Positions 14,620 through 39,697 of a stretch of DNA of 64,000 nucleotides are shown one piece after another. Below the pieces are notes generated by a model. It saw nothing but the letters and a program-made list of their open reading frames with translations. It ran no database searches and had not been told where the DNA came from. Both the position numbers and the translations under genes were made by a program. The number at the start of each line of letters is the position of its first letter. The stretch's first letter is position 1. This DNA comes from Tribonema minus (lineage: Eukaryota > Sar > Xanthophyceae > Tribonematales > Tribonemataceae), in NCBI GenBank assembly GCA_017506865.1, contig JAFCMP010000527.1, positions 248,001 through 312,000 on the forward strand, given 5' to 3'.

Positions 14620-17600
14620 TCATTCGTCATCCTCACTACCCCCCTCTTGGCCCTCCGCTTCCTCCTCCTCCTCGCCTTCCTCTTCAGGGGGCGCCCTAGA
14701 CTCTATGAGCTGGGTTTCATCTAGCATTGGGTCCCTGACCGAGAACAGTGTGTGCAGCGCTCCGCGTTGCAGTGGACGGCCTTCAAGTAGGCGTGTGCAC
14801 AGGGCTGAGCACTGACACGCGTGGGATACGCCCTCTCCCTGCCCCAGCTCCAAATCCTGCATGCCATAGAGAGGTATTTCATAGTGTTGGTCAGACTCTG
14901 AGCGCGTCTTTTGAAGTGATGAGTGTGTTATACCTGGGAGCGTTAGGCACTGTGTGACAGCAACGACCGCTCTAATACCGACACAATATGCTTTAAAAAC
15001 CTCTGCTGCCTACTTGATGCTGAAAGTGCCGAAGCAAACATTGCATCACAAACAGGCTCTACAGACACAGCTACAGACACAGAGAAATACTGTTGGTAAA
15101 CTGAATAAGAGTACACCTCCAGTGAACAAATATGCAGCAACCGAGGAGCAATCAAGCCTTTTCAAGTCCAGCGGAAACAGCAGAGTACCATCAGCTCACA
15201 TTCACCCAACCAGATGTTGTTGTGTGTCATATGTCATAGGCGAACAACATTGTACGTATGGACTTGTATTTATAAAGGCCCAAGGGAGGCCGGGTTACAA
15301 CATTGTACTTTGTAGTGAGCTAGTCACACCCGTTGAGTGCGATTCCGCGATGGCAATGTCTGCTCGCAGTTACAAGTAAAGTTACAGCTGGCATTGCGAC
15401 AATGGCGGTGAAGCAGCACCAGCGCCACAATCAAATGCAACATATTACGCCCGTTGAGTGCGGTTCCGTGGTGTCAATGTCTGTAGTTACAAATCAAGTT
15501 CAAGCTGGCGGTATGTCAATGATGATGACCACAGCCAACTGCAAACATCTCACCGGATTATCAGACTTGAACATGCGCCTCGCCCAGTCACCAAGTGTGT
15601 CCCCACAAAGCACCACGAGCGGAGGCACGCCTGTGTCTGGCCGTCCATCGGCAATGCTGTGAGCGCTGAGACATGCCTCTAGCAGCTCTCTGGTCCCCGC
15701 CTATGAGGCAATGTTGCAGATAAAATGTCATGTTGTAACTGCTTCTGAAGTTATGTTGAGTGTATAGACAAGTCTGAACTTGTACCATTCTGATGCGTGC
15801 TGAAGCTGTAGTCGACGTGCAACGTGCAATCATGGGCTGTGCTTGATGGCGCCAAAGCTATTAATAACTGATAGAGCTGTACGCGCCAACGCAAGGCCAC
15901 ATACTTCCAGTTTCAGGTGCGCTTCCGCTGTAACCCCAGGTCTGAAAGCTGCTAGACTATGTGGCCTTGTTTAAGCAATAGTGTACATAGGTCAAGAGCA
16001 TTTGAGGAAAGCTCACAGCTTGCATGATGCACTGTGTGGTCGAATCATCAAGTGCATTGCCATGGTATGATGCTACGTCAGCACTGTTTGTAGTTAGAGA
16101 TGGTACCTAGCAGATTTGCTGTTGCAAAAGTCGATGAGCTACTTCCACAAGATGGCAACTATTGCCATGTACATTAAGTGTATCGCATACCTGGAAAGCT
16201 GCGCATTCTGCAGCCCCCACCATGCCGTGCCAGAGAACTGCATTGCTGTGCTTCACAGCCTGTAGACGGAGTAACAAACACAGCAATGGGATGTTGAGGT
16301 GATGGGGTGACCAAGGCACAGCGTGCGGATCTTTCTGCGCAAAGGCAGCACATGCCTCACATGCGCGGAAGCCACATGACCAGCCCCACAGCTTGAGCCA
16401 TGTCTCTGGTCCGAACCATGCCCTCACACTTGTCCTTCTCCCTATTTGCAAGCCCTCAATGACCTCAACACATGAGGGGTACGCAAACATCTCCAAATGC
16501 AACTGATCTTCAAGTCATGATGCCAGAGGGAGACTGTGACTGGTGCCAAACCAGACATAGTGCTGCCTGTTCCTGCAGCATCTGAAGTAACCCTTAGGGT
16601 TAGGGTTAGGGTCAGGGTTAGGGGTTAGGGTTAGGCTAAGTCGGGCGGCCAGGGTGCGAGCACAACTTGCAGCTGGAGATGTGCAGCAACTCCATGCACA
16701 CATGTGGCGATGCAATGACACGTCGCCAGCATGAGAGTTTGCGTCTCCTGAAGGGGTCGTGTAGCTTGACTTTGTCAGCCTGCACGAGAACACTGCATCG
16801 CTGCTTTGAGTGCTGCAGCACCTTTACTCTAGCTGTGCATTCAAAACCTTGCGTCAAGAGGGAACATGGGGCTCCAGTCAACATTACATTCTGGATTTCG
16901 CGAAGTCATTCCACATCATGCTGAAGAATCAGCATGGGTGAAATCAAGTGCTCACCTGCTTGAGCGCGGCAATCGTGGCAGGTCCAATGTCAAGAGCAAA
17001 CCGCCTCTGAGGCACCCCTGTTGCGACCTGTCGGCACCAAACAGTGAATTGCTGACTTCTATCAGAAATACAACTCAGCGATGCTGCTGAGTGGGCGCAG
17101 ACGCAGGTGATCTGCGTCTGCTACATGACAACAGTCCCTCAGCAGCCAAATGGTTGACAAGGCATACATTGAAATGGGTGCGATGCAAACAGGGGTTTCA
17201 GGTTAACAGTGCATGGTAGGCTGCAGTCTTTTCGCAAGCACACAAAATGACGCATGAAACTGGCGCTTCGAAGCAGCACCAGCGACAAGATTGCATGTAT
17301 CATTGCCCTTCATCAAGTGAGCACTTCCAGCATTTACTAATGTCATTTAGCTCAAGTGTCTTTCAATGACGTCGTTGCGGCCACAGCTCAGCGTGGACCT
17401 CATGAGCATAGAAGGTTGTTGAATTTAATGATCAGCATACCCCTGCAGCTTTTGCGCCAGCATGCTGCCTTTACAACTTCAGGCAATACACAGTGAAGTT
17501 ATGGGGCAAACAATGTAAGATGTTTGTCATGCTCGCTCTTCACACAAATCTCTGAACCGTGACTTAATGTTCTCACCAGCACATCCTCCGTCTCTCCAGC

Positions 17601-20600
17601 ATACTCAAAGCCCTCTGAGGGGTCAATCTCGGTCTTCACAGACTGCGTCTTGGATTTGCTGTCGTCATCGGGGGCGTCCTCCAGTTGCTGTTGCTGAGCG
17701 CTGCTGCAGTGCAGAGTGAAGCAAAGCGCAGAACTAGATCTGTCACAACTCGTTCTTGGTAGAAATGCTGGTTCCATGTAACTCAGAGCGCTGCACGCCA
17801 TGGAATGTTTCTGAGTTGAGCTGCAGGAAGAATGTGACAACAGCCCGCATGTGCTTGCTGCGCTGATGTTGAGCGCTGCTGCGTCATAACTGACCACTGA
17901 CAAATGCTAACAGCGCAGCAGTAACAGCGCAGTGGCAGGCATTGTTTATTGTACATGCAAGAACCTTCGAGCAGCATGTCTGCTCTCAATCTTTATGGGG
18001 AGGCATATGCATAGAACGGGGGGGGGGGCACATGGAGGAGGATATAGAGGAGGATCCCGAGATGCCATTTGGCGGCGGCGACGTTTGAGTGGTTGTCGTT
18101 GAGACACTTTCAGACTGTCACACGACATGTGTAGATTCCGTACAGCAAGCTTCAAGTTAGATGCCATTCATCTGGGATTTTTCGCGCCCTGAGCGAGAAT
18201 TAATACAAAGTACAACTATCATCCCACCCACATCAGCATGCCCCATCAGCCATAATCACAAATATTCTAATGACATGTATGCATACTCCGTGAACACACC
18301 CAACTGCGGCCGTAACGGTGCTGCCATTCTGCCGAAGGGTCGTGCACAACGATGTCCATTGCCGTGCACCTAGCCTCGTCAGTTTGCTCGAGTCAGCGAC
18401 GGCTAAACTGGTGTCATGTGTAACCCTAACCCTAACCCTAACCCTAGCCCTACCTCTGACCCTAACCAGTGATAACATTTTCTAGCTTTCGAACTCAAAC
18501 TCAGACACAGGGGTATGTATACTCAGACACGCGTATGTGAAGTCACTCACCTTGCAACAGCAGGCATGTCACCGACCACCAGATCAGTTGGCAGAATGAC
18601 ATCGACTCCCCGTTGTCTGGCCTTGCTGAGCAGCCACCTCACGGCACCAACAGTTTCGGGGGTGTCGACGGCTGTCACACGGCTTCCGCATGCAGCTAGT
18701 GCAGTTACGCCAACACCACCCACCAACGCCATCTGCATCATGCACACCACACAGCAATGCGACGTGTACAGTGGGATGATTTGGAGGGCTGCAGTTGCAG
18801 CTGCTGGTACGTTGTCTACACTGGAGCTGTAACCATTATTTCAACGCCAGGAACGTTAGTACCAACAAAAAGAACACTCGTGGATACTTCAAAGTACATT
18901 GCAATGTGAGCAGCGCAATGCATCTATATGTCTGAAACTCCTCAATGCCAGTTGCAGCAGCGCACAAGCAGACAGGTAACGTGAAGATTGCAGGATGGCT
19001 ATGCGCTTTGCACACATCACATTGGTCTGCTGCTCAGTCGTCAGCTCTGAGCATATTGTTGCCACGGTATCTCGAGTGTACTTGTCTTCTACTGCACCCA
19101 AGCACAGGCACACGCAATATCCTAGCTTTCTTCTTGGCAGTTGTGAAGGCTCACCTGATCACAGACATCAATCATGGCATCGATCAGCCGCAGACGCTCT
19201 TCCGCTCGGGCCCCACCTATCACCACTAATAGCGGGCTTCTGGAAGGGACCTCAACTCCAAGCACCTGAAGGGAGGAGAGAAGGAGCAGAGCATGTCAGG
19301 GTGTTGTGGCCTCATCTGGCAATGCCTTGCTGTGGTTGCATCCAAGCCAGGACACAACCCTACCACCCATCATGTACTCGTGGCTGCTCCACGTGAGTCA
19401 CACTTGATGATAGTTCTGCACACTACCGCACTACTCTCAGATGAGTCTTTACTGCGTCGTCCGCTTCTTCAACACGTGTATGAGGTAACAAGCAGTCTGC
19501 AAACATAAACATCTGTTGGGAATGGTGCATCGTCGCACAATGCAATGGCAGCAAGCAATAGTGTCAGACACCATTTGAGGCTGCTGGCTTGCATTGATAC
19601 ACGAACAGCCAAACGCAGGTCCTACTACGTAGGGTTAGGGTTAGGGTGTGCCACCGCAGTCAGCACTCCACCACTGAGTGCCTCAATCAAGTGCTACATC
19701 CAATGCTAGGACATTTGTAACTGGCGCATGCTTCTTAGGGTTAGAGTTAGCCTAAACCTGTACTTGATGCAGTGGCAGGATACTTCTTGAAGTTGATGAT
19801 TACACTTGAGGAGTAGAGTACAGAGTGCCTGAAGCTGTACAAGCTGTGAAAACACTTCGCCCGCTCCTGTGCCATTGACACCGCAGTGCACCATGTCTGC
19901 AAGGCACGCCCAGTGCAATCGTTGCAGCACCACCAACTGCCTGTGTCACTAAGACTAGCGCTAGGCTAAATCTGGGGCATAGTCACACGGCACAACAGGC
20001 CATTGCGCCATGGCTACATGTACTGAACTTCACAAATGTAAACAGTATACGTTGCAGAAAGCACAAGTTCAACAGCACACACCTGGGAGACGGCAATGAG
20101 GTCCTGTGACAGCGCTCCGCCGGCTGCCACCACTGCCCCCTGCAGCTCGCCTTTGTGAACCACACGATATGTCATGTCCACACAACAGGTGCCGTTTTGC
20201 ACCACCACAGTGTCGGTGGCACCGCTGAGTGCTTCGCTGAGGCTGTATTCGGTGGGGGGTGGGGGGGGAGGGGGGGGTTCCTTGCCCCATAGGAAGTCGG
20301 GCAGGCGTTCCTCCTGTCAGGGCAATCATAACACAGCATCGAAGATTCAGTCAGGGTGTGGCAAAGTGATGAGTTGTCTTGGTGCAGATATTGTGAGTGT
20401 TGCATCAAGTGAACAGTCCCATGCTCAACAGACATACATGCATGCTGTGAGGTATGTACAGCATGTGACAACACCGACCACAGTGCTGTGCTAAAGCCAA
20501 CAGTAAAGCTACCGCTACTTGTCAAAGTGCACTTTTTATGCGCAGAATCGATTCCACGGCAATGGCACTGCACCCCATCTTGCGGATGCGTTTGCCAGCT

Positions 20601-23600
20601 TGATCTGAATGTTTTGTCAGCACCCTAACGTACACAATACCTATCCACCATGAGGTAGGCTAGTACACATCAAATTGCTCAATCACTTCAATGCGCACGT
20701 CTGCAGTGTCAGCAGCATGATGTGGCACTTCGTTCAAGCATGTTTGTCTCCGTCACGCATGACCAATTGAGCAGCAAAGCACAGCTCACAATACAGAAAG
20801 GAAACACTGGCGCCACTGCCGCATTAAGCCACAGCCAACCAGGAGCTAACCTGTGCCAGAGTTTCGAGGCATTTGTATGATACATCTGTTGGTAGCATGC
20901 ATACAAAGTTGAGATCAAGGATGCCGGCTTAGACGAATGACCTTGCTGCTGTCTGACACAGAAGGGCTTAAGTGTTGTGCTGATGACGCAACCTTAATTA
21001 GAGCCAGCATTTGAAGCGCAAGCACCAACCTCATCATCGCTGTGGACCTCTGGTGGCGGCGGCGGCGGCGGCAGTGGGTTCCCATGCTCCCCGCAAAGAG
21101 GGTCTACCACCGTAATGATGCTGCCTCTTCCGCTGATGTCATTGGCGTCAAGCGCATGCTTAGCAGCCTCTTGCACCGTTGTTGCTGCTGTCACTACAGC
21201 CGTAGTGACAGCAGTGCTGGCAGCACCGATGCTGGCGTCCGGGGTGACGGCAGCTGCTTCCAGCCGTGCCTGAAGTCTCGTGCACATGTCGGCAGCTGGA
21301 GGTCCACTTTCTGTTACAACAGTGATGGCCTGAGGCTTGCAGCCTAGGACCCAGAGCACCTGTACAGCACAGCGCGCATGGCATGGAGAATTAACATCCA
21401 GCACAATATGTTTATGAACGCGCTTGTTCGGTTCAAGGATGCAAGTGCCGTTCTCATGATGGGTGCATCTCGGTGCTCAGAGTATCTGCGTAAGCATTAT
21501 GCATCACCAGACAGGTCGATGTCAATGCATACTGCACGCGCTGAGGTACTTGAGATCCCCTGCACATGCCGCAGTGAAGTGTATTATTGTTGTGCGCATC
21601 TGGCATAGTTGGGATTAGGGTCAGGGCATATACTAATAGTTGCAATTTTTCTTTCGCTGGACATTCAGCAACACTACAATGCGCCATCGCGAACACCACA
21701 CAAATACATCAAAAAATATGTTTGCAGATGTACTTGTGTTCAGCTGCTGCATACAGCATCTGTGAAGCATTCCCATTCGTGTGAGTCGCTGTACCAGATG
21801 TACACACAAATACAGGCAGCAAGATCCATGCGCCACAGCAGTGGTGAGCAGCCCACCTCCTTCGCCAGTGCTTCTATTGAGTATGTGCCGTCTTCCTTCA
21901 ATGAGCAGTCTCCCATTACCACGATGCGCCTGCCGCATATGTCGTTGGGCCGTGCTTGAGCGTTTGAGAGCAGCGGTTGGGACGCATAGCGCTCCAGGCG
22001 ACTTCGCTGGCGGCATTCCGCAGCAGCGGCGGCGCGTGCATCCTGCATAACGCGGTAGAGCAGCAGCAGTCGCAGTATTACCGTAGTCACAGATCATGAA
22101 TAGAGAGGTCATGTGCTGTGTGTATGAGGGGGGGGGGGGGGGGATGACTTGTTGCGTGTGCTACTTGGCTGCTTGCGCATCAGGCACTTGGATGCAAACC
22201 CATATGCTGGCTGCACATATGGCTTACTGCAGCAGCCGCTTGCAGTGGGTCCAAAGTGCCACCTCCTTGTCTATGCTATACGCAGGCGTTGATACATGTT
22301 CTACCGCACCTTTTGCTTGCAAAGGCAGATGAGCAGAGGGTCAAGTGCCTGCGGAACATTGATGTCGATACTAGCTCGGCGGAAGCAGACGCAAGTGTGG
22401 GCACACTGCAGCAGCACATGCGGTGCAGTAGAACGAATCTAGTCCTGATCCTTGCCACAACCTCAGTCCGAGTAGACTTGAACCCACTCCCACACCATCA
22501 AGCATAAGGAAAGTTGTGACATACGCCATGTGTAGACTGCGTGATCACCAGCGGGCGTGCACAACTTGTCGATCATAACGAGAAGGCCCTGCCTTACCTC
22601 AAAAACGTCGAGTGACGCGCATATTGCCTTGGTGACACCAGCGCACGCGAGGACGCGAATGGCGGCCAGGTGATTGGCGCCTTTCCCAATACAGAGCGCT
22701 GCAGCTTTGGCTTTGGCATCAGCACCAACAGCTGCAGCCACACATGAACAGCAGCAGTAAGCCATGGGTCAACAGGGGCTGCTGTATGGCATGTTCTTGT
22801 ATGTAGGCATCAGAGCGTGGCATGGGCATCGTTGGGCATGCACTGGTGCATAAAGGTTCCACTCAACCCTGATCAGCAATCGTAAGTGTGCCCCGAGCAC
22901 CATTCTGCCCCCATGCAGGCTAGGCTGGCAAGTGATGCTGCGGTCGGCAATTGCCAATACCTCTGCACCATGTCCACCAATACCTATCTAGTGAAGAGTT
23001 GCTTTATGAACAGATGCCAGCACTTTCGCTCATTCACAGCTCGCAAGTGCCGCCATCCCAAGCTTGACTGCAGGACGACTCCTATTCAATACTTCCCGGA
23101 AATATAACCAATAATTCAACTGTCTAGTCTACCAGTCAAGATGCTGTTCACCAAGAGAGGAGACATACTTACCATTGTCCACCAGCGCCCACGCCGTCTT
23201 GGACTCAGGCGTGTACTTGCAGCCCGCGGTTGCCGCTGATGGTGGCTTGTATGTAGCCGGCACTGTCACACCTGCTGCCGCTGATGCACACGCTTCGGCA
23301 ATGGCTGCTGCAAGGCCGCTGCGCATGGCTTGCAGGGGAGCATCTGCGGCGCAGACAAGGGCATGCGGCGCAAGAATGAGTGGCATATTCATAAGATATA
23401 CCAACGAGAAGCAGGGTCTTGGAGCAGAGTTTTCGTAGTATGAGTTGTACATACTGCAGCGCTCGCAGTTTGCTGGAATGCGTGGTCCAAAGAGTAGCTC
23501 AAAGGGGCAATACCATACCGGCATACTCATGAAGACATTGGAGAAGTTGAAGTCAAGCAGACCGACTTGGGCAAGAGTACCATCTGACGTGCATATGAGT

Positions 23601-23674
23601 GCAGTACACATTTGCATCTGTGAACATGCATGCTTCTTAGTCGCTCTCAGTGGTCACAGGCGCATCGTTCAAGG

Positions 23675-23737
<63 letters not shown>

Positions 23738-24372
23738 CGCGTTCTCCGCCTACCTGATGCTTCGCCCGGTAGCAGCTCTGCAGCAGCGCGCAGCGTGCGC
23801 CACCGCGACACAAGCTTCGCGTGCAGAACTTCAAGTGGGTGCAGCACCACCGGCGGTTCCTCATGCGGGGCCTCGGCATCCCCCTCTGTCCCCTCCTCCT
23901 CTTCATCATCACTCCCTTGGTCGCTGCCACCTTCATCGCTAGCATCTGCACCTGCCTCCGCGTCTGCTGTAGCTGCTGGCGTCGAGGATTCTTGCACTGT
24001 AGGCGGCGGTGGTGGCGGTGGCTCGGGCACCCACTGCAACAGCGCATCGATATCTGACATGACGGTGTCCATGCTGCCGTCCCACTCTTTGTCGCTGAGG
24101 ACTTGCAGCATGGCCTTGACGGCCTCCAGTGGCAGTGGCGCGTCAGTGCTCGGCATGGCGCCAGCGCTGCCACTGGCAGTTACGCCATCGGCAGTTACAC
24201 TGTTGGCAGTTACAATTGTGCCGTTGTCTGCTGCGCTGTCAGCGAGTGGCCCAGTGACGCTGTCAGAGCAGCTGGTAATAGCAGCAGCGCAGCCAGCGTC
24301 AGGGTGATTGCCATCCCCTGTGTCAGCAGCTTCTGCATGGTCATTGGTAGCCCCACGACCATCGTCAGTAGC

Positions 24373-24409
<37 letters not shown>

Positions 24410-27400
24410 GCGGCAGCAGCTCGCGCCTCTCTCAGCAGCGCTGTGAATGCGTCGTAGAGTTGTGGGGTGAAGAACGGCGCGACGGCGGCGTTGGCGGCCG
24501 CAAACAGATTCCGTTGGTGACCACGTGCAGCGCTTTGACGGGGAGGCGTCTTGACTCCACTGATGACCTCGCGAACCAGCTCTTCCACCTGTCCGCGAAC
24601 GATAGACCATGTGTAGGTCAATCATGGGTATGCTTTAAAGTGCACATGGACGTCTGATGATAAGGGTACATAGTGTGATGTCACATCATGGAGAGGTGTT
24701 GTGATGCTCATGTCCCCGATTGGCTGCAAGACTGACGGTGGTGGCATCCCATATGATTGGCGGGGACCAGCTGGTTTCATATCGTATAGCGGCACACGTG
24801 CGGGCCACATACAGGCATTGGGTATCACAGAAAAGACATAGAAGTAGGCACCTTGTTTGCAAGCCATGCAACATCAGATGTATGAACACGAAGGTATGCA
24901 ACATCAGATGTATGAACACGAAATTGACACATCGTGACTTATTATGAGACGTGGTAAACATGGTGCCATGGTCTCAAACCGCATGTGCCATGATTCGTGG
25001 GCAACCTCTGTGATGAGCAGACTGGATTCAATGTAGGATCATGTTTACCTTTGCCGTCATGATGCCATGCTCAATACGCACAGCTAGCTGGGCACGGCGG
25101 TGTGGCTGCAGATCCTCCTCATATGCAGCACCCCTCAGGTAGATCTCAAAATACGATCCTGCTTGCTGTTGCTGCTGCTGCTGCTGCTGCACTGCTGCCA
25201 CATCATCCAACTGGTTGCTCCTGCAGGGAGGGCGGGCAAAGCGCGATTCTCAGCAATGTCTACAACATTTGAAGCACGTCTGCAGCTCTACGCTCGGCCA
25301 AGCTCAATGAAACCTGGAGAGGATACTCGGCATGTTCGTTCTGTAGGCAGACTTCACAAGAGTGCTGGCGATGGCTGTATGCTCCGAGCTAAGGCCCTCA
25401 CGTGCATCTAACGCTGTCAAATGCTGGTCACGGGGCTATGACCGCACCAGTACAATGTCAGTTTCAGTGCCTTTCATGGTTCGGCGGCCTGGTAATACTA
25501 TTGTAACTGGACAACGAGCATGCCAGTGCGTTAAGGATGGCCATGTTGTCATGATTTTCACCCCACCACTTCTGCAGGGTCCTGAAAGAGGAATGCCAAT
25601 GCAGATGAACACGAAACAGGGTCACAGACACTGTACAAGTGCAAATACATAAAAAAATAGCAAACACCAAAGGAAACCAGCCTGCAGTGGCGCCGAGCCC
25701 GGTACCTGATGCGCCGGAGTGGCGATTTTGGCTGAGCGCTGCGGTTGATGGATGGATCGTGCAGAGTCAGCACGCCACCTGGCACCATCTCCAGTTGCCA
25801 AGTGTCAGCAAAGAGGCCGGCAGCTGCACTGGCAAAGCTGAAGTGTGTCGACTTTTTGTCGCCAGGGAGCAGCGTCCTGATCGTGCAGAGAGAGAGGCAG
25901 AGGCAGCTTCATTATTAGGGTTGTACAGCAATAGGGCCCCAGCAGCATGCACTCTCAGGCAAGGACAACATATTTGCTCATGTAGCAGCACCAACAGTGT
26001 TCAAAAGCCACCTCATCTCCCAGCACGCTCAATACTGCATGAGCTACTCATTTCAATCCTGTAGTCAGCGCTGTCTTGGTCTCCGTGCAGTGTCATGGGT
26101 ACCTACTCTGTCCTGAGCGACGTCGGTGTCCTCAGCAATGCTCATTCAATAGGCGCCAGTCACCTCAGGCTCTCTTGCTTACCACTGCATAACGTGAGTG
26201 ACACCACAACGTGTGTGACGGAGTAAGAAACTTACACACCTACATTGCATGTGCCTACATACCTGCACAGGTTCTCGTCACAGTGGAGCTACTCATGTTA
26301 GTCCACCATGGACTGGGCCAGCATCAGTTCAGCACTGTTCCGACCCTGCGGCAGGGCTGTTTCTTCATTTGCACAAAACCACGCACATAATAATCACTAC
26401 TTTGCACACCAGCCTGCCCTGGTCAAGTGCTATTCTGCACTTAGGGTTAGGGTTAGGGTTAGGGTTAGGCATTGGGTCCACCTTGAGTGTCCTACTCTGC
26501 CACGATGTTCAATTCCGTCAGTGGGCATGACAGCAGTGCTCATATGCGCTACAAGCCAAGCACGTGTCCGCCATGGCTCCATGGTGATGTGTGCCTGCGT
26601 CTATGCTCTTAACCTCAGCATGAATGCTGCCTCCTTGAAAGTGAAGTTCAACGTGAGTGCTGCCTCTTTGGAACTGAAGTTCGAACCCAACTGTGATGAT
26701 TGTTGGTCAATATGCCCAGTAGATTCCTTGCGTCTAACGCTGCAGTAACAATTCGAGGTTTTATCATCACCATTGACATCATCTGTATCATCTGTTCACA
26801 CCATCTACGGTTACGGTCTCACCCTTGCGCGTCACTGCAGTTGAAGTATGGGTCCGGCAGGATGCCAGGGGGTTCGTCCATCCCCTCTTTGCAAATGCGC
26901 TTCCAGTTGTAGAACACAGCGGTGGAGCCCGTGTTTCGCAGCTTGAGGGCAGCCACAGCTGGGTTGCCTCCAACACGGGCTTCCAGGAGAGTATAGCGGG
27001 GTCCCACGACCTGTGCACAGGAATGAGGAACGTTCAGCTCAAGCAAGGTGCCAGGGCCACTGGCTGTTGTGCGCGCGACTTCCAAAGAATGATGTGTCCT
27101 GAGGTTGGACATGAAGCGAAGAGGTCTGGGGAGTGCCTGGCGCATACTAGTAGTCGTGTCCTACACACAATCGTTCATTGTGTACTTCAAATGCCACCTT
27201 TCATGCAGCAATGCTTCGCGCACATCTGCCTGAGTAGTAGCTTTGGCGTGCAAACGCAAACCACTCCTCTCAAGATAACTGCAGCAAGACCGGGGTATCT
27301 CCGCTTTCGGCGTGCGGGTGCCCCCCTATCACTGGTTGCAACACTCATACTGCAGGCACAGGACCCCCAGACGGTTGGTTCACTGCAGGCCACCCCTGCT

Positions 27401-30400
27401 GTGAAAGAACAGACTTTACCAGGGATGTGCTTCAACATGGACACATGAGTCAGCAGCCGCAGGCTCAACATACCTCCAGAGCAGGTCCTTGTACGGCGGT
27501 GGGTAATGCTCCTGGCGTGGTTACAACCCGTAGTGCAGAGACCCCCTTTGTGTCCCCTCCTTCAAGTAGCCCCCTGTCAAACTCTGCCTGAGCATCTACC
27601 TTGTCCAGCTGCTGGTAGTACTCCTTGCTTGAAGTTTCCGCCCACTGCAGTAGGGGCGTGCCCTGTATGAGCAGTGCTGCTGTTTCGTTTGCCGCCAGTT
27701 CCCTCGGCTTGTGCTCTGTTGATGATGGCAAGTGAAGTGGCAATGAGACAGTATCGTGGCGTATGTGCGCTGGCGATGTTAGACAAGGCACCTGTGCAAC
27801 TTTGGAGCACGCATCTTGTTGTGTCCCTGCACAAGGTGTGTTGAGCAATGTTGTGTGAAATACTCTCAGCTGGCCCAACACTTCTGATCAACCTTACCTG
27901 CTGCTCGAAGCACTGCATGTTGTCACCCACATGCATGCTTGCATGCAAACAAATGGTAATCATACTTAATACATAAATGCTACAAGCTTGTCGAAGTTCG
28001 CAACCAGTGCTCCATTCTGGCCGCTGACTCATATATGTACTTCGTACAACGTTTTCACATATACTTCATGAGGTCATACATGCACATACCTAAGTTCTCG
28101 ATGTTAGCTGCAAGCTGTCTCCTCCGCCGCTTCAGAGGTTCCTGCATTTAGGGCATGGCAAAGCAGTCAGCACTGACTGCCTGTGAGGTGCAAGACGCTG
28201 AGCCTGCCACCATATGACTGAGCGCTGCGCGTGTGCATGGCCTGCGCAAGTGCCACTGTGCCTTCGATGCATGCCATATAGAGCTTGTTGCAGGGGACCG
28301 CTTCAGGCATAGACAAGACTCGGGTACCGCCTTGTGTCGTGCTGCATCTGCCCACCGTTGCCCACCATTGTTGACATGAGCATTACAAGTAATGATAAAC
28401 AATTAATGATTAACAATTAATGATTAATGATGAATGATTAATGAGAGAGATGTCATCCAGTAGACCGGCAAGCGAACTCTGCATGTTGGTCAACCCCAAC
28501 TGACCGACCTGCTCAAGATCAGAGCACTGATGAAGCTTCCTCAGCGCTTTCGCTCCAATGCGTCTCAACTACTCGAATGCATGTTGGTGGTTTCCGACAA
28601 GCAGGTCAACAACTCAGTCGTATTGCACACATGTCTTTCCCAACATCACCAGCTCGGACACGATACCTCTATGTGCGCAGCATCAGATCTACCATTACAT
28701 ATAAGTACTTGTGCAGCTCACCGAGTCTCTCCATGTGCGGTGCCGCGTTGCATCCGGCATGCGGTCAGACGGGCGGCGAACCGTCTGCAATGACGCAACA
28801 AAGATCAACATGATCATGGGTGTAAGGCTTGGAGCTGGGAGGAAGGGTAAGCTTGGAGTAAGGATGAGGTCTACTAGGGTTAGGGTTAGGGTTAGGGTTA
28901 GGGTAAGGGTTAGGGCTACATAGCTTTGAGTACGTTTGTAAACGATCAGGGCAAGGGTGAGCATTACGTGAAACATCGGGCCTTGAAGTGGCATTAATAT
29001 GGATGCTGTGATGTGGCTACACCTGTGGTTGTGACTGCTGGAAGGCGCACCAGAACATCTGCGAGTGCCATAAACAGTGCAGGCAAGGGCCTGCACGGAG
29101 GCAAGCAGGACTGTGAATTGAAGATGCGATGGTGGCATGCGCAACGGACATTCCACAAGCTGCCATTGAATCAGAGCAGAGAGGTGTGCGATGGTGCTGC
29201 AAGCAGTGTGACATGTAGGTACGGTAGCACTCATGTGACAGCAGCTGCACTGTGCAACTGCGGGGATGCCTACCATTTCAAGGCGCGTGATGATGGAGCA
29301 TGGCTAGCCTGTTTGACAGCACCTATTTTTGACGCTTTTGCAGATCACAACAAATGTAACCGCCCAGAATGACAACGGGGCTTGTGGCATTTTGGGGTGC
29401 ATCAACTGAGCCCATGCCACAACTTGTCACATCGCTTCATGAAATGCAATGCACTGTCCAGGCACGCAGTGTTCTGCGACATACTTCAGGGATGTATTCC
29501 GAAGTAGTACTTCTGAAGCATGTGCATACCTTCAGAGGCACTCCTCCCTCTTTGACGTTGCATGCTAGCCCTGTGAAGATGTTGCCAACAGCGGTTTGGC
29601 GCTCGCCAATGCCTCTCAGGCTCATTTCCCAGAACACTTCGCTTGGAAACCTGCGCAGTGAGCAGGGTGAGGGTATGGTAAGGGGCAGCATAAGAACTGG
29701 CTGTATGAGGCCTTAGGGTTAACTTCAGGCAAAGACGACTATAATTCTGGAACTAACGCAACCTCATGCCTGCAAAGTAATGTTTACCAGTACACTTACT
29801 TGACGAGGTATGATGTCACCCATCACGGCAAGGGGTGCAACATGAATGACTGAGCATTGAGAATGGATGCCAACCATATTTTCATGTATAGGACTGGCGT
29901 GGTTGACTGCACCTCATGTCCAGCAATGCTAGTGGGATGGAACACGCTCAAAGCGCTTAGCACGTCACACAGTAAAACTGCTTGCTGAGCGCATGGCAAC
30001 GAGTACAAGCTGGGTCTGCTATGCACTGGCCCTGTGGGTGCTGAAGTAGCTAAGAGCATAAACCACTGTGTCCTCGGCACAACATCCCTCCACAACTGAC
30101 AGCCGCTGCTCACTGCACCTCATCCAAAGTCACCAGTAACAGATGCAAGTGGACGCGCTGGAGCGCAACGGTGGTACCATGTTTGGCCAGGACATGCCAG
30201 TTGGCGATGTCGTTCAGAAGTGATCGTCATTGCGCATTTACACTGTTCACAAGGATACATGAAGGTTCTGGTTGCGAGCTGGACATGCACCATCTGTTTT
30301 ATTTTTTTTTAAACGCCCCCCTGAGCGAGAGTGAACAACGAGTACAGTGTTTGCTCACTTTTTAAGGGTGTTCACAAGGACACATGTAGATTCTGGTTGC

Positions 30401-32605
30401 AAGCTGGACATGGAGCTCTAAGCAAGAATTCATAAAGAGTACAATGTTTGCTCACTTCAAGTGTGCCGGTGTGGCCGACTGCAGGAGCTGGTACGCCTCG
30501 GTGCGCTCCCTGAACTCATCGGCCGTTGACATTACCAGGTCCTCTGGGGGTTTGCCCACGGTTTCAGATATGCCAGCCTGAAATGCAAACCGACGTGGTA
30601 GTTGCATGGCAGTCAGTCACAGGGTTGACAGCACATTCATGTGTTTGCTGCGCAGCATGCAAGTGGCATCTTATGCGCCCGATATATATTAAACGATAAC
30701 TCCACTACAACTGCCCCGAATCAAAGTAACAATGCCTGCTAGCCTCATCCTTGTCTAGAAGTTAGACTTGCAGGCAGGACTGGCAGGCTGACGCTTTGAA
30801 GAACTTGAGGTGGGGCAGCGTGAAGTTGAAGTTGGGGTGTGTGTTGTGTCTAGTGCATCACCCAGCCGCTCTGACGGTATGCCATCTCACAAGTATTGAC
30901 CGGCGTGCCGGCTCTGCTGCATGCGTCAACTGATGTTGACAGTGCGCAAGCTAGCGCAAAAGGGTTGCTTCCAAACCTGTGGTTCCATTGCAGTGCATAC
31001 ACTTGCCGTCTACCTCGGATGCCGAGCATGACCTGAAAACGCCCCATACAGTAGGAGGAAGACAAAATGCTGCCGAGACAGAAGCAGCCAGGAATGGCAG
31101 TGCCTAGAACTTTGACATCAACTTCATGAGTGGCGATGCTCAGCAAGAGACTTCAACTTGGCATCATCACCAGTCAAACAAAACTTCACAAGAGAATACT
31201 TTGAAGTATGTACATCCAAGTGCAGAGCGTCTGCAGTCACGGTGTTCACAGCAGTTACACTTGTGCCAGCATTGACTTCAACACTGCAGCTTCAACACCT
31301 ATGACACCCTCGATGGAGTCCCAGCGGTTACAGTCAGTTACGCCAGCATTGACTTCAACACTGCAACTTCAACACCTGTGACACACCTTGATGGAGTCCC
31401 AGTTCTGCCCCTGTTTCTGCCAGCGCTTGATGACACGAGCCTCTCTCTGCATGCGCAGTCGCTCAACAGGGCCCAGCCGGGACAGCGTCATGTTGCTCCC
31501 GGTTTCCCTGGATCGCTGTATGTCCTGAATTCAGATTACAGTGCACGGGATTCAAATGTGGCTCGTGACGTTGCTGGGTTTTCTAATATGATAATAGCAG
31601 ATGTGCTAGCGCATACATTCGCTCTGACAACATCTGTAGGTGCACGCGAAACACTTGAAATATAGATACAGTCTCACTGCAGGGACTCATGCACTTCGTA
31701 CTTGGAAGCGTATAGCATAGGTAAGCATGCGCGGATGCTCAACAGGGCCCAGGCGTGGCGGCACTATATCCCTCGAACGCTGCTGCACCGCGTCTGCAGT
31801 GTCTGATCTTCAGATGCAATGCGACGTGCACGCCGGCCAACGTTGGACGTATCTTGAGTAGAAGTCCTTTGGCACGCTATTCACTTAGTTTAGCGATGAA
31901 CACCACGTCCCATGGGGTCTTCATGCGGTTTTGAGGCCATTCAGGTGGTATGTGATCTGCCAGTCTGAGGGGGCGCATTGACGTAGTAGTGCAACTCGCA
32001 TGCCTGCCCCCACAAGTAGCCTGCTAGTGGGTGAATCTGCAACAGTACGACAACAGTGTTGCTTGATGTCATAAGACTGCACTAAGCGTATGGAAAACAC
32101 ACCTCCCCCCTCACAAACCCCTGCCGCACCAGGCCTCAGCACTGACCTGCTGCGCCGCAGAAAGCCGGTCAAAGTACCGCTCCCGCTCCCCCTTCCCCTC
32201 CTCCCCCCTCGACCCCCTCGTCCCAGTCAGAAACAGCGTGCCCCCCGCAGTCCCCCCCCCGCTGCCCCCCGCACCAGCGCTCAACCGTGCCGTCCTCGCA
32301 CTCCTTGAAGCAGCAGTGCTCATGAAGCTCGTCGTGGCAAAGGTGTTGCCGCTGCTGCTCATCCGCTGGCTCTGAGCGCTGCTGCCGTAACTGCCGTAAC
32401 TGCTGTGGGCGTCGTACAGGGGGCCGAGAACGGGGTGTCCGAGGGATGCGTCCACGCTTTCAAATTCGCCCGGCGCGCCTAGGACGGTGTGAGGGAGCAC
32501 CCTGCCGTCGTACGATAGTTGAACTCCAGAGGAGTTGGAGGATCCGTGGCTCCTGTGGGCGTACATGAGGTTGGCAAAATTGTGAACCTGATCTAGTCCG
32601 CACAT
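14620..32605 (-). CDS. MYCBPAP-like ciliary protein fused to a degenerate phosphoglycerate kinase-like domain
   Basis: Twenty-two exons chain without a phase break (about 1521 residues): 32147-32605, 31387-31515, 30456-30577, 29530-29650, 28090-28141, 27474-27715, 26823-27010, 25706-25876, 25049-25220, 23658-24588, 23173-23343, 22598-22731, 21857-22042, 21030-21359, 20083-20313, 19155-19265, 18551-18732, 17577-17700, 16956-17027, 16191-16259, 15554-15685, 14620-14856. The first half follows MYCBPAP: W-rich helix (VIKRWQKQGQNWDSIK), GKPPEDLVMSTADEFRER, SEVFWE, an Ig/ASH-like stretch (ALKLRNTGSTAVFYNWKR), LLPGDKK...FADTWQLE, YFEIYLRGAAYEED, VEELVREVISGV. From about residue 1000 it follows phosphoglycerate kinase: VVVIGGAR, LPTDLVV, ALDIGPAT, VLWHGMVG, VLCGD. 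An acidic tail ends the protein. MYCBPAP orthologues belong to the axonemal central apparatus. Poly-Ala and poly-Gln tracts interrupt the middle. The weakest points are the start codon, the donor at 23658 and the acceptor at 15685. Confidence 0.8.
15256..15296 (-). mobile_element. 5'-truncated copy of the 13568 short retroposon
   Basis: On the minus strand this 41-bp segment reads AACCCGGCCTCCC...TTTATAAATACAAGTCCATAC, one mismatch from the end of the 13568-13648 element. It is flanked by ACAACATTGTAC on both sides (15244-15255 and 15297-15308). It lies in the last intron of the MYCBPAP-like gene. Confidence 0.65.
15330..15520. repeat. Local tandem duplication in an intron
   Basis: CCCGTTGAGTGCGATTCCG...GGCAATGTCTG...AGTTACAA at about 15329-15377 recurs as CCCGTTGAGTGCGGTTCCG...GTCAATGTCTG...AGTTACAA at about 15451-15493. 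The unit is about 120 bp and diverged. No coding role is seen. Confidence 0.55.
16593..16636 (+). repeat. Telomere-like TTAGGG array (interstitial)
   Basis: About seven TTAGGG-type units with single-base variants (GTCAGGG, TTAGGGG), in an intron of the MYCBPAP-like gene. Confidence 0.75.
18018..18213 (+). mobile_element. 5'-truncated copy of the copy-B retrotransposon family (copy E)
   Basis: A G-run followed by CACATGGAGGAGGAT, then GATGCCATTTGGCGGCGGCG, the 3' UTR (GAGTGGTTGTCGTTGAGACA) and the tail GCGCCCTGAGCGAGAAT...AAAGTAC correspond to the end of copy B from about 2280. Differences from copy B are few, so it is fairly young. It sits in an intron of the MYCBPAP-like gene, opposite to the gene. 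Confidence 0.75.
18421..18467 (-). repeat. Telomere-like CCCTAA array (interstitial)
   Basis: Four perfect CCTAAC units followed by variant units (CCCTAGCCCTACC), C-rich strand on plus. It lies in an intron of the MYCBPAP-like gene, 84 bp from exon 18551-18732. Confidence 0.75.
23676..23737. repeat. CAG/CTG trinucleotide tract encoding poly-Ala
   Basis: About 20 uninterrupted CAG units on the plus strand. On the coding minus strand this is read in the GCT frame and gives a poly-Ala run near the end of exon 23658-24588. A second such tract (24374-24408) lies in the same exon. Confidence 0.8.
24866..24922. repeat. 30-bp direct tandem repeat
   Basis: ATGCAACATCAGATGTATGA followed by ACACGAA occurs twice in succession without a mismatch (24866 and 24896). 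It lies in the intron between exons 25049-25220 and 23658-24588 of the MYCBPAP-like gene. Perfect identity implies a recent event. Confidence 0.8.
25162..25195. repeat. CTG/CAG tract encoding poly-Gln
   Basis: CTG repeats on plus (CAG on the coding minus strand) give nine consecutive Gln codons in exon 25049-25220 of the MYCBPAP-like gene, interrupted by one CAA codon. Confidence 0.75.
26441..26469 (+). repeat. Telomere-like TTAGGG array (interstitial)
   Basis: Four to five perfect TTAGGG units in an intron of the MYCBPAP-like gene. Confidence 0.75.
28874..28917 (+). repeat. Telomere-like TTAGGG array (interstitial)
   Basis: About seven units, nearly perfect, with one TAAGGG variant. It lies in an intron of the MYCBPAP-like gene. 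Confidence 0.78.
30193..30442 (+). mobile_element. Two worn retrotransposon tails in tandem (copies F and G)
   Basis: TGCCAGTTGGCGATGTCGTT at 30196 resembles the 3' UTR of copy C. The segment ends CCCTGAGCGAGAG...CGAGTAC at 30345, a degraded family tail. A second unit from about 30369 repeats TTCACAAGGACACATG...CTGGTTGCAAGCTGGACATG and ends AGCAAGAATTCATAAAGAGTAC at 30442. Both are followed by the same flank (TGTTTGCTCACTT), so the second arose by local duplication of about 97 bp. The duplicated flank includes the donor of exon 30456-30577 of the MYCBPAP-like gene. Confidence 0.55.
31265..31402. repeat. Tandem duplication covering an exon end
   Basis: GCCAGCATTGACTTCAACAC...CAGCTTCAACACCTATGACA...GATGGAGTCCCAG (31265-31324) is repeated at 31342-31402. 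The second unit contains the real 3' end and donor of MYCBPAP-like exon 31387-31515. The first unit carries a decayed copy of that exon end in the intron. Confidence 0.7.
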
Positions 32606-33790: not shown

Positions 33791-36700
33791 CTACGGAGGG
33801 GCCGGCGGTTCGGCGCTGGCCGGCGAGGGCCGCGGCACTTGCAACAGTGCGATGCGGCGGTAAGCGCTGACGTCGCCATCAGGGGCAATGACTGCGGTCC
33901 AGTTGTCGATCACGACACGTGTGAGCGCGCGCTGTAGCGCGAGGGAGGTGCTGCGGCGCCAGAAGGCAACGCGCTGCGCGAGATTGTAGCTGCCCTGCGA
34001 GCTCTGCGCGGCGAGTGCGTGTAGCAGCGCTTGGGTGTCGCGTGACATAGCGCCGAAGTGGTCAAAGGCTGCGGAAAATAGGGTGTGTGTAGTGGGGTCC
34101 AGGGCCCCTGAGACTATGTATGTGTCTATCTTTTCCTGCGAAGCCGATTCAAGCACGCGCTGCACATCGCGCGCGCCCCCCTGAGCCTGACGGAGGCGGG
34201 AGGGGCATGAGCTGTCACGTATGGTGACGTCTATGCAACAAGCTACTTCAAAGCCGCCGCGCAGTTTAGTGCACCGGCCTGCTGCTACCGCGTCGGCGCT
34301 CGGCTGCACTTTAGGGACTGGAAGGCAGACCTGGTTGCTGCCAAAGACGATGTCCATGAACTTGTTGAACCCGTGGCGCGCCGCGTAGCGGCGGAAGGGG
34401 GCAAGGGTGTCCCGGTCGAGACCGCGGAGGTGGGCCACCTGCTTGAGCAGCTGAAAGAGCGCGTCTGCGAGCAAGTTGTGTCGCGTGACGTTAAGCCCTT
34501 GTGTGCAGCGGCGCAGGTGGGCACCCGAGTCCACTGGTCTATGGCACTTGGGGCACCGCGCCACAGCGGGGGCGGGGCGCTCCACGCCCAGGTGGCGCCG
34601 CAGCGTCACGGTCTCGCGGAATTCCGGCGGGGACATGGTCTCCGCTGGGTCAGTGCTCGGCAATTGCGCCAAGAAACCCATGGCCCCCTTAGAGGCGCCG
34701 CTGCGCCACGCCGCGACTGCTTCCAACGCATTTGCTGCTTCAAGCCGACGCAGCTGCGTGGCGGCGAGCGCTGCGTCTAGCACCCGTGATAGCGCCGCTT
34801 GACGCCGCGGCAGCACGGCGGCCGGCGGGGCTGGGGCAGAGCCTGGCTCGCGCGCCACCGCTGGCGCAGCAGCGCGGCGCGCGCCGGCGCGAGTCCGCAT
34901 GCCCGGCCCCGCAGCTCCGCCTGCCCGTTGCAGCAGATCGCGCAGCGCCCGCCATGCGCCGTCGTCGTGGCGCCAGTCCTGGTACCAGACCGTGGGCAGG
35001 AGCAGTGCGAGGGCCGCTGCAGCCTCATCGCTGCCGCTGCGCAGCTGCTGCAGGCAGGTAGCTATCTGGGTGAAGGTGAAGCCATAGCGGGCATGCTCTA
35101 GGACGCGGCTGCGTGCCGCGACTGGAAATGCCGCCAGTGCCGGCCCCATGCACTGAGTCTCGAGGGAACGTGCAGCAAATGCGGCACATGCACGGGGCGC
35201 CGCGCCCAGCACGCCAAAGCCACCACTCCCCAGCCGCAGATGCACGCGTACCTGCTGATGTGCTGGTAGCGTCACTGGGGCCTCGCCACCCCAGTCGGCG
35301 CCGCGTACCCATGCCACTGCCGCCGCCCACAGAGAGGGCGGCGCCGCCGCCGCCGAAACCGCCGGCGGGCCGCGGCAATCGTCACCCACCGCCGGCGCGC
35401 CCTGGTGGGCCGGCGGCGTAAGACCCGCCGATGGCTCCTGCGCCAGCGCGGCCACGGCCGCTAGCGTGATGGCGTCGAAGCGCCGTAGCTCCTCGTGCGT
35501 GAGGGATGGCGCTGTATTGCGCGAGACATGCCCTGCGCGGGCGGGGACGGCAAGACGCAGAATGGAGAAGGCAGCCTGCACATCCTCCATCTGCACAAGC
35601 TCCGCAACCAGGCGGTCGGTGCCGGGGGCACGAAGGGTCGCCGCCACTTGCGCGCGCACGAAGCCCTCGGTGCCGACCGGCACCCCCATCAGCGTGATGC
35701 CGTCGTCACATACTGGTACGGGGACATTGGCGGCGGCAAAGACGGCGGCGGCGCGCTTGCGGGCGCCGCCTGAGGCCGGCACCAGCGCCGCGCATTTCGT
35801 GACGTTGACCTGAATGTTGAGCTCGCTCAGCGCCTGTTGTATGAAGCAGAACGCGCGGCCAACGTGGCCGAGCACCGGCGCGTCACAGCTGGGCGTCATG
35901 ATGGTGAGGTCATCGAGGTAGCCCGGAAGCGTCAGTTGCGGGAACTTGGCGCGGGCAGCCACCATGGTGCCGCGCAGTGCCAGCGCGAACAGCAGCGGCC
36001 CCAATGGGCCGCCCTGCTGCACGCCCTGTTGGGAGAGGATGATGGCGGCGTCGGCGTGCCCATCTAGGCCAAATTGTAGCCAAGGGGCCCGGCCGGGGCC
36101 GTAGATGTGCTCGACGTAGCCGTACAGGCCAGGCAGATGCTCGGCCACCGCGGTGAGGACTGCCGAGCGCGACAGCGCGTTGAAGGCATTACTGCCGTCA
36201 ATGGCAAGGAGCACGCCGCCGCACTCATGCGTGAGCTGCGCCATGAGCGCCACTCTCTTTGCGCCCCCCCGCGCGCCGACCCCAAACTGGCCAATTGGTT
36301 CCAGCAGCGCGGAGACGCGGTCCCGGGTGTCCGTGCAGAAGGTGCGGGCGAACAGGCGGCGGATGGTGTCGCCGCACGCGATGGGGCGCGCCTTCTCGCC
36401 CACAGCGCTGAGGCGCGCGGCCGCGTGAAGGCGCCAAAAGGGGGCGGGCAGCGCGGCGGGGGTGGAGTACACCGCGGTACCCAGCCACGCCAGCAGCTCA
36501 AGGAGCCAGTCAACCGTGCGCCCCGACGTGTGCGCCGTGTGCCGGACGCACTGCTGGAGGTGGGAGTTGCGCAGCCCAGAGGGACCGGCGGCCGAGCCAG
36601 GGTTGGCGGCGAGGATGGCCTCGCGTAGCCCGTCCGCCGTGAATGAAGCGCAGTTGAGTGGTGCCGGCGCCGCCAGCGCCGCCGCCGCCACCAAGCTGCG

Positions 36701-37969
36701 CGCCCGCGATGCCGCGGCATCCAGCTTCGCAGACGCATCGCCAGCTGGGTGTTTAGCCTGCAGTTTATGCAAGGTAGCGGAGTCGCGGGGGGCAGATGTG
36801 TCAGCACCCTCCGCCAGCAGCCGCGCGGCGCGCCCGACGCCGCCCGGCTGCCGCGCCGTCGCCGCCGCGCGCTCCCGCACTGCCGCCGCCGCCTCCGTCA
36901 TAGACCTAGCGCGGCGCGTGCACGCACGGGCGGCGCCGCGGCGGCAGAAGGCCAGCGCTGTGCGCGTGAGCAGGTCCAGGTCGCCTGCCACGAAGGCCGC
37001 AAAACGGTGCGCCCGCGGCAGGGAGCCGTCGGGTACAAGCAGCAGGCACGGCAGCAGATGCAGCAGCTTGCACCATGCACCGGCTGTGGCGGACGCCTGT
37101 GCCGCTGCCTCAACCCCGTGTGCCTGCGCTACCGCCGTCTGCGCTTCCCGGAGGCCCGCCAGCGTCGCCGTCAAGGCGGCTGTGAAGTCCGAGCGGTGCT
37201 CCAGGCGAATGCAGCGGCCGACCACCAGTTGCTGCTGCAGAACATAGTCAAAGGAGAGGTCGTCAAGCGCTGCGCGCGCGGGCGAGAGCGGCGCCAGCGT
37301 CCAGAGCGGAAGCGCGCTGCGCCATGTTGGCCCTGCCGCAGCCACAGCGGCAGCTGCGCGGGCGCCGGGGCCGCGCGCGCCGCCGCTGGCTGTAGAGAGG
37401 GGGAGGATGGGGGGCAGAGGCGCGACGCGGGGCCCGTGTGGCCGCTGCGTTGCGGCCGCCCCCCGGGACTTGTACAGGTGGTCGCGCTGGTGCAATTTCG
37501 TGCGCACGCACCCTGGCTCGCCGCACGAGGCGCATGCGCAGAGTAGCAGCTCGGGTTCCACGGCGTAGTAGGTGCCCGCGCCGGCTCGGTGGAGAGTCAA
37601 ACACTCATCGTCGACCGCCTGCATACGCGCGAGAAAGTCGGCAGGCACATTCGGATGCTCGCGGCGCTGGTGATCCGCCAGCGTCTTGGCGATGCGGCGC
37701 GCCAGCGCCAGCGACGCCGACGTCTGCGCCGTGAGCGTGTGCGCCTCCCCGTTCCGGCGGAGGCGCGGTTTGGGCACTGGCACCCGAAAGAGGCAGCCAG
37801 TGTCATATAAAGGGCAGCGCGGATAGATGGCAGCCGTTGCAGGCTGAGCGGGCGCCTGCACTGCCTCAGGCTGCGCAGGGTCTATGCCCGCCGCGGCAGC
37901 CGCTGCTGCAGCAGCAGCTGCCGCAATGGCCGCCGGTGCGGCTCCCCCTGAAGTAGAGTCAGACATCAT
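33791..37969 (-). CDS. Retrotransposon ORF2: reverse transcriptase and restriction-like endonuclease
   Basis: 1392 residues from ATGATG at 37969 to TAG. An Ala-rich leader is followed by two Cys/His clusters (about residues 52-110, CPLYDTGC...HQRREH; about 143-162, CASCGEPGC...HQRDH), likely DNA-binding zinc fingers. RT motifs are clear: LAIDGSNAFN (Asp near 591), GVQQGGPLGPLLFALAL, and YLDD at 684-687, so the catalytic aspartates are present. A CCHC knuckle follows (C1139, C1142, H1151, C1155). The endonuclease-like domain has FMDIVF (D1206) and IDVT (D1247). The protein would nick target DNA and prime cDNA synthesis from it. No apurinic-type endonuclease domain was seen. The start is 33 nt after the ORF1 stop, in the same frame. 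Confidence 0.88.
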   Translation of the reverse strand: MMSDSTSGGAAPAAIAAAAAAAAAAAAGIDPAQPEAVQAPAQPATAAIYPRCPLYDTGCLFRVPVPKPRLRRNGEAHTLTAQTSASLALARRIAKTLADHQRREHPNVPADFLARMQAVDDECLTLHRAGAGTYYAVEPELLLCACASCGEPGCVRTKLHQRDHLYKSRGAAATQRPHGPRVAPLPPILPLSTASGGARGPGARAAAAVAAAGPTWRSALPLWTLAPLSPARAALDDLSFDYVLQQQLVVGRCIRLEHRSDFTAALTATLAGLREAQTAVAQAHGVEAAAQASATAGAWCKLLHLLPCLLLVPDGSLPRAHRFAAFVAGDLDLLTRTALAFCRRGAARACTRRARSMTEAAAAVRERAAATARQPGGVGRAARLLAEGADTSAPRDSATLHKLQAKHPAGDASAKLDAAASRARSLVAAAALAAPAPLNCASFTADGLREAILAANPGSAAGPSGLRNSHLQQCVRHTAHTSGRTVDWLLELLAWLGTAVYSTPAALPAPFWRLHAAARLSAVGEKARPIACGDTIRRLFARTFCTDTRDRVSALLEPIGQFGVGARGGAKRVALMAQLTHECGGVLLAIDGSNAFNALSRSAVLTAVAEHLPGLYGYVEHIYGPGRAPWLQFGLDGHADAAIILSQQGVQQGGPLGPLLFALALRGTMVAARAKFPQLTLPGYLDDLTIMTPSCDAPVLGHVGRAFCFIQQALSELNIQVNVTKCAALVPASGGARKRAAAVFAAANVPVPVCDDGITLMGVPVGTEGFVRAQVAATLRAPGTDRLVAELVQMEDVQAAFSILRLAVPARAGHVSRNTAPSLTHEELRRFDAITLAAVAALAQEPSAGLTPPAHQGAPAVGDDCRGPPAVSAAAAPPSLWAAAVAWVRGADWGGEAPVTLPAHQQVRVHLRLGSGGFGVLGAAPRACAAFAARSLETQCMGPALAAFPVAARSRVLEHARYGFTFTQIATCLQQLRSGSDEAAAALALLLPTVWYQDWRHDDGAWRALRDLLQRAGGAAGPGMRTRAGARRAAAPAVAREPGSAPAPPAAVLPRRQAALSRVLDAALAATQLRRLEAANALEAVAAWRSGASKGAMGFLAQLPSTDPAETMSPPEFRETVTLRRHLGVERPAPAVARCPKCHRPVDSGAHLRRCTQGLNVTRHNLLADALFQLLKQVAHLRGLDRDTLAPFRRYAARHGFNKFMDIVFGSNQVCLPVPKVQPSADAVAAGRCTKLRGGFEVACCIDVTIRDSSCPSRLRQAQGGARDVQRVLESASQEKIDTYIVSGALDPTTHTLFSAAFDHFGAMSRDTQALLHALAAQSSQGSYNLAQRVAFWRRSTSLALQRALTRVVIDNWTAVIAPDGDVSAYRRIALLQVPRPSPASAEPPAPP

Positions 37970-38002
37970 TACGGTGGATGAGGGGAGCGCCGCACCGGCG
38001 GC

Positions 38003-39601: not shown

Positions 39602-39665
39602 GTCACCAGCGCGGGTGATGCGCAGGCGGAAGCCGCTGAAGCTGAAGTCAGCGGAGTCGCCGGCG

Positions 39666-39677
39666 TAGTTGAAGTTG
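39666..39677. repeat. Target-site duplication, 5' side of the full-length retrotransposon
   Basis: TAGTTGAAGTTG, identical to 33717-33728. Confidence 0.75.
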
Positions 39678-39697
39678 GAACCCGATCCCGGACGACG

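Follow-up and report, generated by a model that had tools for sequence, protein, structure and literature searches.

The window analysed here is a stretch of 64,000 nucleotides of Tribonema minus DNA, and the gene of interest occupies its minus strand from 32605 to 14620. We built the gene model by hand, using open frames, GT-AG sites and the landmarks named in an earlier, sequence-only reading of this DNA as guides; exon borders were set by eye so as to keep the frames coherent and to take in known landmarks. The spliced model has 23 exons and a coding sequence of 4560 bases, encoding 1519 amino acids with a single terminal stop and no internal stop. The exons are as follows:

32147..32605, minus strand: exon 1, start ATG at 32605 and next in-frame ATG at 32566; low-complexity N-terminus
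31387..31524, minus strand: exon 2, start of the MYCBPAP region
30456..30577, minus strand: exon 3, MYCBPAP region; PF14646 E 9.5e-4 in the exon-by-exon genome search
29530..29650, minus strand: exon 4, MYCBPAP region
28722..28784, minus strand: exon 5, MYCBPAP region
28090..28141, minus strand: exon 6, MYCBPAP region
27474..27715, minus strand: exon 7, MYCBPAP region
26823..27010, minus strand: exon 8, MYCBPAP region; PF14646 E 0.0065 for the lone open frame, below cut-off
25706..25876, minus strand: exon 9, MYCBPAP region; PF14646 E 1e-4 for the lone open frame, below cut-off
25049..25220, minus strand: exon 10, MYCBPAP region
23754..24588, minus strand: exon 11, end of the PF14646 match, then a linker (poly-Ala, poly-Pro, acidic)
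23173..23343, minus strand: exon 12, linker without a family match; donor ATG|GTAAGT
22598..22731, minus strand: exon 13, linker without a family match; mediocre acceptor, with an in-frame ATG at 22765 just upstream
21857..22042, minus strand: exon 14, expected start of the phosphoglycerate kinase (PGK) N-lobe, GRRIVVMGD; z 1.8, 28 of 500 shuffles as good, not significant
21030..21359, minus strand: exon 15, N-lobe position, low complexity
20083..20313, minus strand: exon 16, N-lobe position; z 0.2, 163 of 500 shuffles as good
19155..19265, minus strand: exon 17, PGK C-lobe, IGGAR...EER (IGGAKVSSK in the host C3 PGK)
18551..18732, minus strand: exon 18, PGK C-lobe, VGGVG and LPTDLVV; PF00162 E 6.8e-4 for the lone open frame, below cut-off
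17577..17703, minus strand: exon 19, PGK C-lobe and an acidic insert
16956..17027, minus strand: exon 20, PGK C-lobe, LDIGPAT
16191..16259, minus strand: exon 21, PGK C-lobe, LWHGMVG...E (canonical WNGPMGVFE)
15554..15700, minus strand: exon 22, the C-lobe GT motif first, then LCGDT (canonical GGGDS), placed by alignment order
14620..14856, minus strand: exon 23, CQCSA...LLEG (canonical STGGGASLELLEG), acidic C-terminus and stop codon

All 22 introns, 374–946 bases long, have GT-AG borders, and phase agrees at each of the 22 junctions. The sequence-only reading had described 22 exons without a phase break; the continuity of phase holds, while the exon count is 23. The landmarks that it named are all present, in order, on the minus strand within 14620–32605. 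When each exon was scored with a codon table derived from the other exons (leave-one-out), the model frame gave the best log-odds in 23 of 23 exons and mean scores were positive for every one. This test is partly circular, because table and background derive from the same gene model; despite this, the codon scores show no exon out of step. A pure CAG/CTG repeat of 20.7 copies (23676–23737) lies in intron 11 just past the donor, and a second array (24366–24420; 18.3 copies, 88% matches) codes for poly-Ala in exon 11. Short TTAGGG/CCCTAA runs were seen by eye in the introns, at about 16590–16640, 18420–18465, 26440–26470 and 28870–28920.

Before joining, the signal from individual open frames was faint: among 10 frames, PF14646 (MYCBPAP) was matched by two (E 1e-4 and 6.5e-3) and PGK by one (E 6.8e-4), and none of these matches reached its curated Pfam cut-off. 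The sequence-only reading had suggested a profile search of the spliced protein, and this yielded PF14646 at residues 180–624 (E 1.4e-38; 133.5 bits versus a curated cut-off of 24.5), followed by PF00162 (PGK; E 1.5e-28), both above their cut-offs. A sequence search of the PDB matched the MYCBPAP half to Chlamydomonas FAP147 (7n61/7som; E 4.3e-13) and to mouse MYCBPAP (9ijj; E 1.3e-8). Exon 1 carries an LPH-x-x-LG motif like that of the mouse protein, although the alignment with residues 120–150 of 9ijj_v scores 0 bits and speaks for order only. These matches place the first half in the FAP147/MYCBPAP family. Exon 3 of this gene was the sole PF14646 locus detected in the genome (158 Mb, 554 contigs; E ≤ 0.001), in a search run on single exons, by which a second, diverged copy could be missed; by this measure the gene is the only detected MYCBPAP/FAP147 orthologue of the alga. 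Han et al. 2022 (PMC9113940; authorship as given in PMC13345628) assign to FAP147 the role of rachis in the C2a arm of the central apparatus, and MYCBPAP is handled as a C2a protein in an eLife 2026 study of the vertebrate C2a (PMC13345628). The mouse sperm central apparatus structure includes a MYCBPAP model, but the two major C2a components that it identifies are CFAP65 and CFAP70, not MYCBPAP (PMC12297659), which speaks against such a role. By family membership, the algal protein would likewise be axonemal.

The second half is a different matter. The best stretch of the PF00162 match covers residues 1191–1406 and profile positions 161–337 of 379 (100.3 bits, cut-off 27), and a search of this half against the PDB gave PGK matches with a best E of 5.7e-17. 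The signal comes from exons 17–21 (residues about 1206–1400); by a position-specific score, the C-lobe core at residues 1212–1400 reached z 30, with none of 200 shuffles as good, and the lobe also aligned to a profile of four host PGKs with an hhalign probability of 97.6. The flanking segments behaved otherwise. At the N-lobe position (residues 985–1205), local alignment gave z −0.3 (283 of 500 shuffles as good) and end-to-end alignment z 0.5 (154 of 500), pairwise comparison with two host PGKs left 193 of 300 and 232 of 300 shuffles as good, and the similarity was not significant by Pfam, host or broad PGK profiles, although a diverged lobe is conceivable. For the CGD/LLEG end in exons 22–23, 41 of 500 shuffles did as well under local alignment (z 1.5) and 130 of 500 under end-to-end alignment (z 0.5). 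To the eye, GRRIVVMGD and LSEALSGATDTVVVQN resemble strands of PGK, an impression that the scores do not back, and exon 13 was rejected as a piece of PGK (20 of 200 shuffles as good). Since exons 12–15 and most of exon 16 have no above-cut-off Pfam match, the bridge between the two halves is without homology support. With a strong C-lobe and neighbours that are not significant, the safe wording is a PGK C-lobe whose ordered neighbours may be diverged PGK. On sequence similarity, homology of the second half to the nucleotide-binding C-lobe of PGK is firm, and firm for that lobe only.

Seven of the eight genome matches to the PGK-like part lie within this gene, so that one copy was detected; the eighth is an exon of the C3 PGK gene, at 31% identity. 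A recent copy of a host PGK can be rejected as its origin, because core identity to the four host genes (25–31%) is not above that to bacterial PGKs (26–34%). A relative in viral contigs was also sought: five stretches fitted a pattern, and none codes for a relative. The PGK half matched 48 PDB sequences at E up to 1, and these include neither FAP147 (976 amino acids) nor mouse MYCBPAP (932 amino acids). Both proteins match the first half only, which for mouse bears out the earlier statement that vertebrate MYCBPAP ends before this region.

The second lysine of GGAKVSSK and the STGGGA loop are functionally relevant positions in PGK. We aligned the protein with 55 canonical PGKs, four from the host genome and 51 bacterial. 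Both GGAKVSSK lysines, Lys in 55 of 55 references, are replaced by arginine (Arg1225 and Arg1229), and the equally invariant Asn of WNGPMG is His1380 (WHGMVG). The first Gly of GGGM is Val1246, GGGD has become LCGD and STGGGA has become CQCSA; each Gly of the latter two loops is present in all 55 references. The core landmarks LDIGP, W-x-G and GT are kept, as are Glu1387 and Asp1426, with Thr1427 in place of Ser. The alignment is secure as far as the GT motif at 1394–1395 and weaker beyond, so that LCGD and CQCSA rest on a stretch that is not significant alone, and Asp1426 and Thr1427 fall within this weakly aligned end. Section 3.1 of PMC7729029 sets out what the lysine, Asn, Gly-Gly-Gly and Asp positions do. 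As residues invariant in active PGKs are replaced, the PGK part probably makes no ATP, and on this sequence evidence it is most likely not a glycolytic enzyme; the retained Asp1426, Glu1387 and Thr1427 possibly leave room for nucleotide binding. At least four canonical PGK loci exist elsewhere in the genome, on contigs C3 (L010), C13 (L012/L013), C113 (L014/L015) and C468 (L011), the C3 gene matching in three pieces and the others in seven to eight short pieces each. This copy was therefore free to degenerate.

The combination of domains has a precedent. Tetrahymena thermophila has a MYCBPAP-PGK protein, TTHERM_00856750, beside a canonical PGK, for which a role in conjugation or transcription was suggested (Rojas-Pirela et al. 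2020, PMC7729029). Because of that report, the architecture itself is not new. As described there, the ciliate protein holds both domains in one polypeptide alongside a separate canonical PGK gene, as our gene model predicts for the alga; its authors regard it as a PGK of the multidomain type that may act in the nucleus (PMC7729029). Enzyme domains within central apparatus subunits are also described for CPC1, FAP42 and FAP246, although these are adenylate and guanylate kinase domains and belong to another arm, C1b (PMC9113940). A preprint on the Tetrahymena ciliary cage complex reports contacts with a phosphoglycerate kinase, which one not being specified in the part cited (PMC12485934). Among the matches listed in our search of the open-licence literature, none placed a MYCBPAP-PGK protein in the central apparatus.

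Trypanosoma brucei offers a further comparison, PGKL. PGKL is described as a flagellar PGK-like protein without catalytic residues (Brown et al. 2014, PMC4106842), and according to the 2020 review it is tightly bound to the axoneme (PMC7729029). It shares with the algal protein, which is predicted to be axonemal as well, a degenerate PGK (PMC4106842, PMC7729029). The arrangement differs: in PGKL the PGK stands at the N-terminus, ahead of a cyclic nucleotide-binding domain and a helix-turn-helix region, with no MYCBPAP part mentioned in the accounts cited. A cyclic nucleotide-binding domain after the PGK part of the algal protein was sought in the spliced sequence, with no Pfam match at E up to 1.

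Homology confined to the C-lobe, a replaced active site and four ordinary PGKs together make a pseudo-PGK lobe on a FAP147-type rachis the most likely reading. Our preferred explanation, which we consider probable, is a single gene for a MYCBPAP/FAP147 orthologue whose C-terminal extension contains a degenerate PGK C-lobe, acting as a non-catalytic docking module on the C2a rachis. The N-terminal half would build the rachis of the C2a arm, like FAP147 in Chlamydomonas, and the part derived from PGK would be carried on it as a pseudoenzyme. The module may retain a changed nucleotide- or phosphate-binding pocket, capable of binding without turnover; it could hold adjacent C2a subunits or tune the arm to a metabolite, and would probably produce no ATP. 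The sequence-only reading had proposed a glycolytic fold built into a structural axonemal protein, perhaps as a scaffold or nucleotide sensor, and had noted that glycolytic enzymes supply ATP in Chlamydomonas flagella. A PGK-derived lobe is indeed joined to a FAP147 orthologue in the model, and the C2a rachis role of FAP147 fits. The fold, however, is demonstrable for the C-lobe only, and with its active site changed it probably does not supply ATP; it may still sense nucleotides.

Whether the halves form one gene turns on intron 12 (23172–22732), where a good donor (36 of 1183 regional GTs score as high) is paired with a mediocre acceptor (208 of 1218 regional AGs score as high). Two same-strand neighbours could be drawn instead: a MYCBPAP gene that reads through exon 12 and stops at 23129, after 14 codons, and, from ATG 22765 onwards, a divergent PGK-like gene. 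This ATG shares the frame of exon 13, and an in-frame TGA lies 6 bases before it. Further in-frame ATGs in exons 12, 14 and 15, and the absence of a PGK part from the Chlamydomonas and mouse proteins, would suit such a split, as would the mediocre acceptor. However, the additional codons that it requires look non-coding, scoring −7.35 (11 codons) and −4.26 (14 codons) where all 23 exons are positive, and terminator and promoter together would have only about 360 bases. A search between the halves for four poly(A)-like words found none, a point of little weight, since the 300 bases past the real stop hold only one TGTAA. A candidate for the second start codon, which the sequence-only reading had named, together with a promoter, as a sign of two genes, is present, but the codons that it would add do not resemble coding sequence. 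Since these codons look non-coding and both domains are reported in one Tetrahymena protein (PMC7729029), we regard a fusion as very probable within the gene model, with a single transcript predicted, and two separate genes as unlikely.

With the single gene preferred, the role of its tail can be read in other ways. The C2a rachis could ancestrally have been a FAP147 with a PGK-derived tail, which ciliates and some algae retained while Chlamydomonas and animals lost it, the tail serving as a non-catalytic sensor of ATP/ADP or of a glycolytic intermediate that tunes C2a; we think this unlikely. It also seems improbable that a normal FAP147 carries the PGK part at its end as a non-functional relic of evolution. 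Its strong degeneration and low-complexity inserts would fit, as would T. brucei PGKL, which is described as axonemal, probably dead and non-essential in procyclic cells under the conditions tested (PMC7729029); yet exons 14–23 keep an open frame with coding-like codon use, and the LDIGP, W-x-G and GT landmarks persist. A nuclear or transcription-linked protein, as guessed for Tetrahymena MYCBPAP-PGK, is highly unlikely: the 2020 review drew that role from expression during conjugation (PMC7729029), whereas work on Chlamydomonas and mouse assigns FAP147 and MYCBPAP to the central apparatus (PMC9113940, PMC13345628, PMC12297659). An active or partly active PGK supplying or buffering ATP at the C2a arm would have company in the nucleotide kinase domains of CPC1, FAP42 and FAP246 and the enolase of the C1b arm (PMC9113940), and could point to the retained Asp1426 and Glu1387. 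Replacement of the two invariant lysines, of the Asn and of the glycine-rich phosphate loops, together with the lack of a recognisable 3-phosphoglycerate lobe, speaks against it, and it is the reading to which we give least credence.

The central apparatus was already described as holding nucleotide kinase domains and a glycolytic enzyme (PMC9113940). What is added here is an algal member of the MYCBPAP-PGK architecture, the degeneracy of its PGK part and a proposed link to the central apparatus. With a ciliate and now a second lineage, the pairing would seem to be of early origin or to have arisen repeatedly, and both the placement and the age of the fusion become testable. For the Tetrahymena protein, the C2a arm becomes a location that can be tested, in place of a nuclear role that was a guess. 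Should the PGK part be dead, as seems the case here, structure or sensing would be favoured over local ATP supply.

A genome search for CFAP65-type Ig domains returned 21 matches at E up to 0.1 on several contigs, 12 of them above cut-off, and prokaryote controls matched in three of 14 cases at E up to 0.1, none above cut-off. These matches are consistent with motile flagella and a C2a partner, or with related proteins. Light-harvesting proteins gave 92 matches in the genome, by which the alga is photosynthetic; together with the absence of an RbcS match in the genome search, they hint at a red-lineage plastid. Elsewhere in the window, a G+C-rich block (about 70%) at 33791–39709 on the minus strand contains two abutting long open frames, of which the 1403-amino-acid frame matches the RVT_1 reverse transcriptase (E 2.7e-9) and the 568-amino-acid frame matches nothing; the block, probably a non-LTR retroelement, lies on the gene's own strand some 1.2 kb upstream of it. 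On the plus strand, a 659-amino-acid alanine-rich open frame at 369–2348 has an end that resembles a retroelement protein tail by eye, and a 580-amino-acid open frame at 46973–48715 contains pentatricopeptide repeats (PPR_2, E 1.1e-21).
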